Assembly: GCF_018860975.1 (NCBI RefSeq)
Contig: NZ_JAHKQI010000008.1
Span: 311,746-375,745 of the forward strand
Source of the DNA: Lentibacter algarum
Lineage (GTDB): Bacteria > Pseudomonadota > Alphaproteobacteria > Rhodobacterales > Rhodobacteraceae
Reading direction: 5' to 3'
Length of the DNA stretch: 64,000 nucleotides
The notes beneath the pieces are model-generated. The model saw nothing but the letters and a program-made list of their open reading frames with translations, had not been told where the DNA came from and did no database searches. The position numbers and the translations under genes are program-made. Positions 18,262 through 21,300 of this stretch are shown piece by piece (positions within the stretch are counted from its first letter, which is position 1; every line of letters begins with the position of its first letter).

Positions 18262-18912
18262 TTACTGCGAAACTTCAGTTGCTTTGTCAAAACCCGACGT
18301 AAAACCAGAGAGTGACATCGTCAGGACAACCTTTTGATCAGGTGCAGGAGCTGGTACCAAAGTGATCTTGGCGTTTGCGCCCTTTTTGAAATTTGCAATG
18401 TCTTCAGCTGTGAAGCCGATCCGCGCAAAGCAACCGATCGGGCTGCAAAAGCTGTATGGGTAACGCTTGGCTTTGGCCCCGTCGACGCTCATTGAAAGCT
18501 GCGCTGAAAGCAAGGTTTCAAGAGGCACAAGAACGTTTGCTCCAGCAACTGCACGTCCGCCATTCTTGAGCTTGAAAATCGTAACTTCTGCAACATTGGT
18601 GCCTTGATCATCTTTGAGTTGCTGCAGCATCTGGCAAGGCTCTTCTTCGCCGTCAACACGCAGGCACTGGATTTGCCAATCGCCGGATGTCTCTCTGACG
18701 TAGGGCTCGGGAACAGCTTCCTCGCCAAGGCTCAACTGGCCTTCCTGCGAAGGCTCTGCTTCTGCTTCGGTCTCTGTCGCAGGCTCTGCATCAGTGGCTG
18801 CTGGCTGCGTTGCTGTTTGGGTTTCTTCGCTTGTTGTCGTGTCTTGTGCCAGAGCAGGTTGCCCGAGGGCAAAAAGAGCAAGAACAAGCGCTGTGCTGGT
18901 ATTTTTAAGCAT
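18262..18912 (-). CDS. Invasion-associated locus B (IalB) family exported protein
   Basis: 216 residues with a signal peptide (residues 1-22, ending ALAQ), then a low-complexity Thr/Glu/Ala linker (about 24-60), then the IalB domain with SGDWQIQCLR, a CQMLQQ motif and the paired-cysteine segment FCSPIGCFARIGF. IalB proteins are widespread periplasmic proteins of alphaproteobacteria; despite the name, a role in invasion is shown only in Bartonella. Two candidate small RNAs lie upstream on the same strand, the nearer ending about 97 bp before this start. Confidence 0.88.
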   Translation of the reverse strand: MLKNTSTALVLALFALGQPALAQDTTTSEETQTATQPAATDAEPATETEAEAEPSQEGQLSLGEEAVPEPYVRETSGDWQIQCLRVDGEEEPCQMLQQLKDDQGTNVAEVTIFKLKNGGRAVAGANVLVPLETLLSAQLSMSVDGAKAKRYPYSFCSPIGCFARIGFTAEDIANFKKGANAKITLVPAPAPDQKVVLTMSLSGFTSGFDKATEVSQ

Positions 18913-19008: not shown

Positions 19009-19079
19009 AAAAAAAGAGAAGCTCGAAAGCTCCTCTCTTCAAAATCGTCTCCCTGCCGGACTGGGCCGGCTTATTATAG
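19009..19079 (-). ncRNA. Candidate small RNA (or leader) upstream of ialB
   Basis: On the minus strand, TTGACG (19114-19109) is 17 bp from TAACAA (19091-19086), giving a start near 19079. The RNA would be about 70 nt: hairpin GCCGG-CCCAGU-CCGGC (19070-19055), a purine-rich linker with AGGGAGACG, then a strong terminator AGAGGAGCU-UUCG-AGCUUCUCU (19036-19015) with a run of seven U. The terminator shows that a transcript ends here. Whether it is free-standing or a leader that partly reads through to ialB cannot be told. A TATAAT at 19078-19073 is an alternative -10. Confidence 0.55.
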
Positions 19080-19152
19080 GATAAATTGTTAGGCCAGCTA
19101 TTGGCCATCGTCAACAGCTAGTCTTTGTCGATACCGAAAAGTGAACGTCAAA

Positions 19153-19248
19153 GAAAAAAAGCCGCACCCGAAGGCGCGGCCAGTCTGACAGGGAGGAAGT
19201 CAGCTTCGCGCCAAGAGGACATGAGGCACGAAGCAGGTTTGATACTGG
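19153..19248 (-). ncRNA. Candidate trans-acting small RNA with anti-Shine-Dalgarno hairpin loop
   Basis: On the minus strand three hairpins follow one another with almost no gap. First, GCUUCGUGCC / GGCGCGAAGC with loop UCAUGUCCUCUU (19234-19203). Second, CUGAC / GUCAG with loop UUCCUCCCU (19203-19185), which exposes the anti-Shine-Dalgarno core CCUCC. Third, a terminator GCCGCGCC-UUCG-GGUGCGGC (19180-19161) followed by seven U. The promoter is less sure: TTGCGC (19283-19278), 17 bp, AACACT. The design recalls the CCUCCUCCC-motif (CcsR, cuckoo) RNAs described in Rhodobacter, but the usual DUF1127 neighbour is absent. No reading frame explains the structure. Confidence 0.6.
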
Positions 19249-19308
19249 CAGATAAGTGTTAAAAGAGTATTTGCAGGGCGCAAGATTCTCGAAAAAAGGG
19301 GCAAAGGC

Positions 19309-20862
19309 TTGTCAGATACTAACATTACAGACATTTTTATGGGCGGTGGCGGTGAAGGCTACGGCGAGAAACAACATCTTGGCCTCAAATATGCCAACCG
19401 CCACGGGCTGATTGCGGGTGCAACAGGCACAGGTAAAACCGTGACACTGCAAATCATGGCCGAGAGCTTTTCAAACGCCGGTGTGCCGGTGTTCATGTCA
19501 GATGTGAAAGGTGATCTTTCCGGCCTCGCCAATGCGGGCTCAGAGGGGGCCAAACTGCATGAACCCTTCATGAGCCGCGCACATACCATCGGTTTTGACG
19601 ACTATATCTACGAGAGCTTCCCTGTCACTTTCTGGGATCTGTTCGGTGAGCAGGGGCATCCGATCCGCACCACGCTCGCCGAAATGGGCCCGCTGCTGAT
19701 CTCACGCTTGCTGGAACTCACCGAGGCACAAGAAGGCATCGTCAATATCGCCTTTCGGGTTGCCGACGAAGAAGGCATGCCGCTGCTTGATCTAAAAGAT
19801 TTTCAAGCCTTGCTGGTGTGGCTTGGTGAGAACCGCGACAAATTGAGCCTGCGGTATGGCAACGTTTCTGTGTCCTCGATAGGCGCCATTCAGCGCCGCC
19901 TGTTGGTGCTTGAGAATCAAGGTGGCGACCAGATGTTTGGCGAGCCGGCCTTGTCACTGTCTGACATGATCTCGATTGACGAAACCGGTCGCGGGCGGGT
20001 GAATATCCTGGCGTCCGATACGCTGATGGGCGCGCCACGGCTTTACTCGACATTCCTGCTTTGGCTGCTCAGCGAGTTGTTTGAAGAGCTGCCCGAAGTT
20101 GGCAACCCAGACAAACCTGTCATGGTGTTTTTCTTTGATGAAGCGCACTTGTTGTTTGACGGAGCACCCAAAGTTCTGGTCGACAAAGTCGAGCAAGTTG
20201 CGCGACTTATCCGCTCCAAGGGCGTTGGTGTGTATTTCATCACCCAGAACCCTGACGACGTGCCAGAAGACATCCTCGGTCAACTTGGCAACCGCGTGCA
20301 ACACGCGCTGCGGGCTTTCACCGCGCGTGACAAGAAGGCGCTCAAGTTGGCGGCTGAAACCTACCGCGAGAACCCGCGTTTTGATATCGAGGAAGCGATC
20401 CGTGAAGTCGGCGTTGGTGAGGCCGTAACCTCGTTTCTGGAAAAGAAAGGCGTGCCCGGTGTCGCCGAACGCACGCTCATTCGCCCACCAAGCTCACAGT
20501 TGGGGCCGATCACCAAAGCCGAGCGCGCCGCAGTGATTGCCGCTTCGCATATTGCTGGGAAATACGAGGCCAAGCTTGATCGCCACTCGGCGTTTGAGAT
20601 CCTGACCGAACGCGCTGCAACTGCTGCCAAAGAGGCTGAAGACGCCGAGCGCCTTGAGGAGGAAGCCGAAGCTGCTGAAGCCGAATACAAAGCGGCACGA
20701 CGCTATTCTGGCAAGCGTGTGTCCCGCTCGACCTCCCGCAGCAGCCGCAAGACAGAAAGCTTCGGCGATGCCTTGACCAAAAGCGTGATCAAAGAACTTA
20801 AAGGCACCACAGGCCGTCGTATCATCCGCGGCATTCTAGGCGGCTTCTTCAAGGGCCGTTGA
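19309..20862 (+). CDS. HerA-like ATPase, DUF853 family
   Basis: 517 residues. Walker A is GATGTGKT at 37-44 and Walker B is VFFFDEAH with D277/E278, followed by FITQNPDDVPEDILGQLGNR, typical of the DUF853 (YjgR) branch of HerA/FtsK-type P-loop ATPases. The C-terminal 90 residues are Glu/Ala-rich and then Arg/Ser-rich, ending in a conserved KGTTGRRIIRGILGG stretch. The start is TTG at 19309; an internal ATG at 19339 would lose only 10 residues. Physiological role unknown. No nuclease or defence partner lies beside it, so there is no sign of an HerA-NurA system. Confidence 0.9.
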   Translation: MSDTNITDIFMGGGGEGYGEKQHLGLKYANRHGLIAGATGTGKTVTLQIMAESFSNAGVPVFMSDVKGDLSGLANAGSEGAKLHEPFMSRAHTIGFDDYIYESFPVTFWDLFGEQGHPIRTTLAEMGPLLISRLLELTEAQEGIVNIAFRVADEEGMPLLDLKDFQALLVWLGENRDKLSLRYGNVSVSSIGAIQRRLLVLENQGGDQMFGEPALSLSDMISIDETGRGRVNILASDTLMGAPRLYSTFLLWLLSELFEELPEVGNPDKPVMVFFFDEAHLLFDGAPKVLVDKVEQVARLIRSKGVGVYFITQNPDDVPEDILGQLGNRVQHALRAFTARDKKALKLAAETYRENPRFDIEEAIREVGVGEAVTSFLEKKGVPGVAERTLIRPPSSQLGPITKAERAAVIAASHIAGKYEAKLDRHSAFEILTERAATAAKEAEDAERLEEEAEAAEAEYKAARRYSGKRVSRSTSRSSRKTESFGDALTKSVIKELKGTTGRRIIRGILGGFFKGR

Positions 20863-20916: not shown

Positions 20917-21300
20917 TCAGTTGCTAAGGGCCTGCACGAGAAGTGAAGTGGCAAGCACCAAGAACAGATCACCGTTTTGTTCGACATAAACATGTCCTTG
21001 AGCAGGGCGGCGCAATCCGCGCTTGTTCCAGTCTTTGACAACCGCAGCATTGTGCCTGTTAGCGTGGACATGGGTATGCTTCACAACCGTTCTTGTTGTG
21101 GTGCGCTGTGGGGTCTTTGTGACGGTTCGCTGGGTTGAGTGAACCTTTGTTCTTTGTTTTGTCGATGTCTTGCGAGTTTCCCGTTGGGCTTGCTCTGCAA
21201 CTGCACTGTGCTTCAGTTGCTTGTCTGACTTTGCGAAAGCGGGCGCTGCGAAGCTTGTCATTGCAAGCGAGGCGATCAAGGCAATAGAAATGCGGTTCAT
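20917..21300 (-). CDS. RcnB-like exported basic protein
   Basis: 127 residues. Signal peptide 1-23 (ends AFA), then a long Lys/Thr/Arg/His-rich region (about 25-85), then a short conserved C-terminal domain (RGLRRPAQGHVYVEQNGDLFLVLATSLL). The GLRRPxxGxxYVxxxxDxxLV pattern and ending match the RcnB family, named for a periplasmic protein linked to nickel/cobalt efflux in E. coli. No rcnA efflux gene is next to it, so metal linkage is only a family hint. Confidence 0.75.
   Translation of the reverse strand: MNRISIALIASLAMTSFAAPAFAKSDKQLKHSAVAEQAQRETRKTSTKQRTKVHSTQRTVTKTPQRTTTRTVVKHTHVHANRHNAAVVKDWNKRGLRRPAQGHVYVEQNGDLFLVLATSLLVQALSN

Follow-up and report, generated by a model that had tools for sequence, protein, structure and literature searches.

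The 64,000-nucleotide stretch of Lentibacter algarum DNA analysed here (the window) carries on its minus strand a candidate pair of co-oriented small RNAs, sRNA1 and sRNA2 (Table 1). We consider it probable that sRNA1 is an anti-Shine-Dalgarno (anti-SD) regulator of the alphaR8/Sis/SorX-SorY type and that sRNA2 is a sponge encoded in tandem with it, directed at sRNA1 and sibling RNAs. We read from the sequence the two RNAs with promoter motifs and terminators, and likewise their conservation, linkage and complementarity. An initial annotation of the window had proposed the first RNA; the complementary second one (~19009-19080) was missing from it, and the new element is, in our reading, the conserved sRNA-plus-sponge tandem.

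Table 1. Features of the putative tandem locus and its neighbours (window coordinates)
Feature	Position	Strand	Basis and remarks
sRNA1 promoter-like motif	19242..19271	-	AATACT (-35-like, 19266-19271), TTAAC spacer (19258-19262), CAGTAT (-10-like, 19242-19247); promoter role inferred
sRNA1, candidate anti-SD sRNA, ~82 nt	19154..19235	-	5' end estimated from -10-like box
sRNA1 hairpin 1, loop UCAUGUCCUCUU (19213-19224) with second anti-SD stretch	19203..19234	-	stem pairing across homologues
sRNA1 single-stranded seed CUUCCUCCCUGUCAGACUGGCC	19178..19199	-	final letters run into terminator stem
sRNA1 intrinsic terminator, U7 tail	19154..19181	-	sequence scan
sRNA2 promoter: TTGACG (19109-19114), 17 nt, TAACAA (19086-19091)	19086..19114	-	family consensus and scan match
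sRNA2, candidate sponge RNA, ~72 nt	19009..19080	-	5' end estimated; covariance model
sRNA2 pairing module GCCGGCCCAGUCCGGCAGGGAG, 5-bp hairpin plus SD-like AGGGAG	19049..19070	-	complementary to 19178-19199
sRNA2 terminator GAAGAGAGGAGCUUUCGAGCUUCUCUUUUUUU	19009..19040	-	covarying helix
IalB-family gene, downstream of sRNA2	18262..18912	-	PF06776, E 7.6e-38
HerA_C ATPase gene, divergent neighbour	19309..20862	+	PF05872, E 1e-216

The initial annotation had placed a small RNA at 19153-19290, in a gap devoid of minus-strand genes, and no convincing gene was found there by us either. The minus strand of this segment folds at -47.3 kcal/mol versus -30.4 +/- 3.4 kcal/mol for dinucleotide shuffles (z -5.0, 0/200), and blastn detected homologues in 30 of 60 relatives, a few of the matches covering the terminator only; both results speak for the candidate. 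The proposed seven-U terminator was recovered as well. As for the extent of the transcript, it narrows to 19154-19235: a conserved promoter-like motif is situated at ~19242-19271, so that the 5' third of the annotated span is probably a promoter and the start probably lies close to 19235. Among 128 unique homologues, the upstream consensus reads nnngAncATACAatnTTAACcntTnnntGCCAgtnT, and the arrangement ATACA-N3-TTAACC-N7-GCCA-N3-T was also obtained. The TTAACC of the spacer is strongly conserved in the family, while the window itself has TTAACA (19258-19262, minus strand). The ungapped CtrA variant TTAACCAT begins with the same six letters, TTAACC (PMC6180460), and from this match CtrA may control sRNA1, which we mention as a lead only. 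A reading frame starting at the AUG of loop 1 was rejected, since it is not conserved (frames 22/22/26). A 25-nt copy identical to the sRNA1 terminator is located elsewhere in the genome of the window, designated G000 (G000:C7:220957-220982, plus strand).

Three stacked hairpins had been described, of which hairpin 1 and the terminator stand. In the alignment, the stem of hairpin 1 is variable and its AUGUCCUCU loop often retained. Of the 82 homologues whose loop holds GTCC, 61% had a contiguous stem of at least 8 bp, as opposed to 4.3% with shuffled flanks. Because a MAFFT alignment concealed the covariation, stems were aligned outwards from the loop; five to six pair types were then found at almost all stem positions (49 unique stems). 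The second hairpin, a 5-bp helix around UUCCUCCCU in the window, is absent from the minimum-energy fold, and its flanks show no conserved pairing (at most two contiguous pairs are possible in 60 of 137 homologues). The UUCCUCCCU region is conserved as linear sequence, indicating a single-stranded seed and no loop. Hence the exposed anti-SD sequence is retained as a conserved, single-stranded CCUCCC, though not within a hairpin loop. The seed ACUUCCUCCCUGUCAGACU was near-invariant among 44 diverse homologues. Loss of the stems or of CCUCC in relatives had been named as evidence against the candidate, and neither hairpin 1 nor the CCUCCC motif showed such a loss. That the segment is a mere stable terminator-like structure or a product of transcription noise has hardly any likelihood: the promoter motifs are conserved, the hairpin carries compensatory changes and the seed is invariant across the family.

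Homologues of sRNA1 are widespread. With a degenerate pattern, named genomes of Rhodobacteraceae and relatives (Rhodobacter capsulatus, Roseovarius and Sulfitobacter among them) yielded at least 118 loci, and a covariance model gave at least one match in 58 of 61 family genomes, the counts of this model taking in SorX/SorY-type relatives too. Strong blastn homologues are syntenic, with a HerA_C gene diverging on one side and ialB followed by a ketoacyl synthase gene (KASII) on the other; this context was conserved in 26 of the 30 loci collected first. The HerA-like ATPase proved to be the divergent neighbour, as annotated, and the DUF1127 gene is indeed absent, HerA, IalB and KASII being found instead. 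A small gene of the RcnB family (PF11776) lies convergent with the HerA gene at 20917-21300 (minus strand) of the window.

We then considered to which class sRNA1 belongs. In the whole window, the Rfam gathering score was reached by one tRNA only. sRNA1 scored 29.9 bits with SorX (RF02784; E 1.6e-5, full model), below the gathering score of 46.6, 23.3 bits with SorY (RF02651), below 111, and 23.1 bits with alphaR8/suhB/MmgR (RF00519), below 41, a score which RF00519 reached in none of six tested genomes of the family. In the reverse search of Rhodobacter sphaeroides, the sRNA1 model recovered the sRNA1 orthologue along with SorY and SorX. On account of these forward and reverse matches, sRNA1 would act like an alphaR8/Sis or SorX/SorY RNA, its scores being below the formal thresholds. 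alphaR8 RNAs are defined by a single-stranded UUUCCUCCCU with a hairpin before it and a terminator after it (PMC12559287). The layout of sRNA1 is alike, its UUCCUCCCU core being single-stranded between a variable hairpin and the terminator, and its CUUCCUCCCU agrees with the alphaR8 10-mer in nine of ten letters. In contrast to most alphaR8 members, which are reported beside an N-formylglutamate amidohydrolase gene, sRNA1 lies in the HerA/IalB context; unlinked siblings are known in the alphaR8 family (PMC12559287). Unlike what characterises SorX, a conserved promoter motif of its own precedes sRNA1, and this genome encodes its SorX-like RNA at another place. Taken together, sRNA1 appears to group with those sRNAs of Alphaproteobacteria in which the anti-SD sequence is single-stranded (alphaR8/suhB-MmgR, SisA-D, SorX, SorY), and the best reading is that of a putative trans-acting sRNA with an exposed anti-SD sequence.

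The initial annotation had instead likened the RNA to the CcsR/cuckoo design or suggested a new class. It shares with CcsR1-4 an anti-SD sequence, small size and the family Rhodobacteraceae, and both CcsR/cuckoo membership and a new class of anti-SD RNA with hairpin loops can draw on CCUCCC and the UCCUC of loop 1. We nevertheless rejected the CcsR/cuckoo assignment and regard either version as highly improbable. CcsR/cuckoo RNAs are defined by CCUCCUCCC in hairpin loops (PMC3927594), and CcsR1-4 derive from the 3' UTR of ccaF1 (PMC8625941). CCUCCUCCC is absent from the sRNA1 transcript and CCTCCTCCC from the minus strand of the region, CCUCCC resides in a linker lacking a conserved stem, and neither ccaF1 nor DUF1127 is a neighbour. 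As for a new class, the nearest Rfam models are SorX, SorY and suhB/MmgR, beside which the covariance scores place sRNA1.

The second RNA, the unlisted sRNA2, follows the sRNA1 terminator on the minus strand and precedes ialB. It consists of a hairpin GUCGG..CCGAC with an AGGGAG tail, followed by an A-rich linker and a covarying terminator, and the consensus of its module is AAGUCGGCC(A/G)GUCCGAC(A/G)GGGAG. The TTGAC of its promoter was present in 121 of 121 unique loci, with a spacer of 17 in 116 of them and a -10 box that is mostly TAGCGT. The terminator helix was 92% paired, with double-sided changes at six of ten pairs; the covariation of sRNA2 was equalled in 0 of 500 shuffles. In a sample of one genome per genus of Rhodobacteraceae, a large family with marine and phototrophic members, the covariance model of sRNA2 matched 353 of 395 genomes, mostly in single copy, which places sRNA2 among the most widely retained small RNAs of the family; a second draw from the same family gave 195 of 197. 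Elsewhere in the class, the model yielded only weak matches in other families (up to 26 bits), none of them convincing, and Rfam contained no match to sRNA2. The first loci had been picked through sRNA1, and linkage was therefore examined again in a set of 33 selected solely on sRNA2: sRNA1 was found upstream in 31 (E < 1e-6), ialB in 33 and the HerA gene in 32.

The module of sRNA2 and the sRNA1 seed are close to perfect reverse complements, a single mismatch occurring in ~18-19 nt, the predicted partners being GACAGGGAG and CUCCCUGUC. When up to one mismatch was allowed, the longest complementary run had a median of 19 nt across 121 unique locus pairs versus 8 nt in shuffled pairs (maximum 16), and the mean duplex energy was -37.2 versus -18.0 +/- 3.9 kcal/mol. 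A conserved A-C mismatch breaks up the duplex, and the mismatch-free run is 9 nt, modestly above shuffles; for this reason, the claim of complementarity is founded on the one-mismatch run and the duplex energy. Cognate partners fitted slightly better than partners swapped between genomes (0/20000 permutations). When swaps were made with the nearest relative, 13 pairs were better, 8 worse and 24 equal (sign p 0.19, Wilcoxon p 0.016). As the signal is weak among near relatives, coevolution of the two RNAs is suggestive, not proved.

This weak test, together with the fact that R. sphaeroides retains both RNAs despite poor mutual pairing, might also indicate that sRNA1 and sRNA2 each have their own mRNA targets, their complementarity being an old inverted duplication or an SD/anti-SD-like bias of no present role. 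We find this improbable, given that the complementarity goes well past the SD core (GUC-GACUGGCC), that the complement was found in 121 of 121 unique pairs and that sRNA2 is retained in ~350 genera. A search of the genome for mRNA targets with the pattern GACAGGGAGGAAG returned 82 matches, the reversed control 42; a plausible start codon accompanied few of the matches, and none was convincing. Complementarity to the seed of the target sRNAs, by which a sponge is recognised, is present in sRNA2 as predicted pairing. Because the near-complementary pair is kept almost family-wide, sRNA2 is probably a sponge of sRNA1.

The predicted pairing extends beyond the linked partner. The genome of the window encodes a SorX/SorY-like sRNA at G000:C7:452600-452693 (plus strand; SorX model 49.9 bits, above gathering), which is predicted to bind sRNA2 with -40.4 kcal/mol and 14 contiguous pairs. 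Another CCUCCCUGU sRNA of this genome is likewise predicted to pair with sRNA2, namely a SorX-like RNA at G000:C8 ~109027 (minus strand) with the seed CCUCCCUGUUGGCC. It lies in the 3' region or downstream of a probable OmpR-type response-regulator gene, the same kind of position as that of SorX in R. sphaeroides. Were sRNA2 a sponge of several sibling sRNAs, its predicted pairing with the SorX/SorY-like sRNA, and with SorY of R. sphaeroides (see below), would be expected.

The corresponding locus was also inspected in a genome which, on the basis of a 100% match to the PufX sequence, we take to be that of R. sphaeroides. Its identity was confirmed with the SorY model and with the start site published for SorY (PMC6238624). 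By the same model and start-site position (PMC6238624), a motif match upstream of purL, initially thought to be StsR, turned out to be SorY. The tandem is located on chromosome 1 at ~1.4267 Mb, with the sRNA2 homologue at 1426534-1426606, sRNA1 at ~1426667-1426807 and a catalase-like gene in the place of HerA, a match to which was not found in this genome. It is unlikely that sRNA1 is StsR (RSs0827), since gene numbering puts StsR near SorX (RSP_0847, 2.598 Mb), not at 1.4267 Mb. In R. sphaeroides, the sRNA1 seed is disrupted by an insertion, sRNA2 being intact. Predicted binding of the two (-11.8 versus -8.9 +/- 3.5 for the null) is barely above the null, and SorY is predicted to pair better with sRNA2 than the adjoining sRNA1 does.

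RSP_2779 is the catalase gene (PMC4176601). Because a catalase-like ORF flanks the R. sphaeroides locus, gene numbering indicates that UdsE (RSs2778) is very probably an RNA of the tandem locus, most likely corresponding to sRNA2. The available portion of PMC8625941 describes UdsE as a 5'-UTR RNA detected by Northern blot, with a 5' end generated at a transcription start site, involvement of RNase E and PNPase, a cotranscript confirmed by RT-PCR and growth-phase data. UdsE differs from sRNA2 as interpreted here in that it is presented there solely as a 5'-UTR-derived sRNA, with these processing and growth-phase data; that portion gives no function, no partner and no pairing with sRNA1, SorX or SorY.

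Control might also run in the reverse direction, with sRNA2 (UdsE-like, in the 5' region of ialB) as the target and the CUCCCUGU sRNAs governing how stable it is or how far transcription reads through into ialB, in the manner of StsR on UpsM and the dcw leader. The derivation of UdsE from a 5' UTR, its confirmed cotranscript and the involvement of RNase E (PMC8625941) agree with this, as do the position of ialB after sRNA2 in 33 of 33 loci and StsR-UpsM as a known sRNA-sRNA case in R. sphaeroides. We nonetheless judge it rather unlikely, because sRNA2 closes with a conserved, covarying terminator ahead of ialB, and its pairing module sits at the extreme 5' end, away from the ialB start, and ranks with the best-conserved parts of the locus. 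Control in one direction does not preclude control in the other. StsR-UpsM resembles the tandem in that one small RNA pairs with another; the loci are different, and the UpsM/mraZ leaders contained no GRCRGGGAG module of the sRNA2 kind.

The sponge interpretation assumes the following. The single-stranded CUUCCUCCCUGUC of sRNA1, possibly also the UCCUC of loop 1, would pair with ribosome-binding sites and repress translation of several mRNAs. Just downstream, sRNA2 would be transcribed from its own strong sigma70-like promoter and, carrying the near-complement of the seed (AGUCCGGCAGGGAG plus GGCC), would act as a sponge or decoy titrating sRNA1 and the unlinked SorX/SorY-like siblings, in the way CrfA does for SisA-D in Caulobacter, and would probably trigger their decay. 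Transcription at this locus, formation of the duplex in vivo, translational repression and the direction of control between the two RNAs are what we infer. More tentatively, with confidence that falls somewhat short of even, we propose that the tandem of anti-SD sRNA and sponge is near family-wide, the sponge serving as a hub that titrates linked and SorX/SorY-type sRNAs and sets a repression threshold, with a possible tie to the CtrA phosphorelay. The long complement to anti-SD sRNAs gives sRNA2 a concrete, testable role and would place a sponge beside its own target; if true, the stress sRNAs SorX and SorY gain a common control point.

Among known systems, SorX and SorY of R. sphaeroides have the module ACCUCCCUGUnnGACU-GGCCG and a terminator in common with sRNA1; they differ in their loci and promoters, and sRNA1 remains under their gathering scores. 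Known targets are a spermidine transporter mRNA for SorX and takP for SorY. The logic of the proposed tandem resembles most that of Caulobacter crescentus, in which the alphaR8 RNAs SisA-D carry a single-stranded UUUCCUCCCU with an anti-SD signature; the sponge CrfA pairs with this 10-mer, so that SisA-D become less abundant and their targets are released (PMC12559287). In both cases, a single-stranded anti-SD seed of the UUCCUCCCU type is followed by a terminator, a G/A-rich second small RNA matches the seed, and several siblings share it. In contrast to CrfA, sRNA2 is in tandem with one of the siblings, has another gene neighbourhood, carries a longer complement (18-19 nt) and was found only in Rhodobacteraceae. 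Rhodobacteraceae may thus have their own version of the CrfA-SisA principle, perhaps of separate origin.
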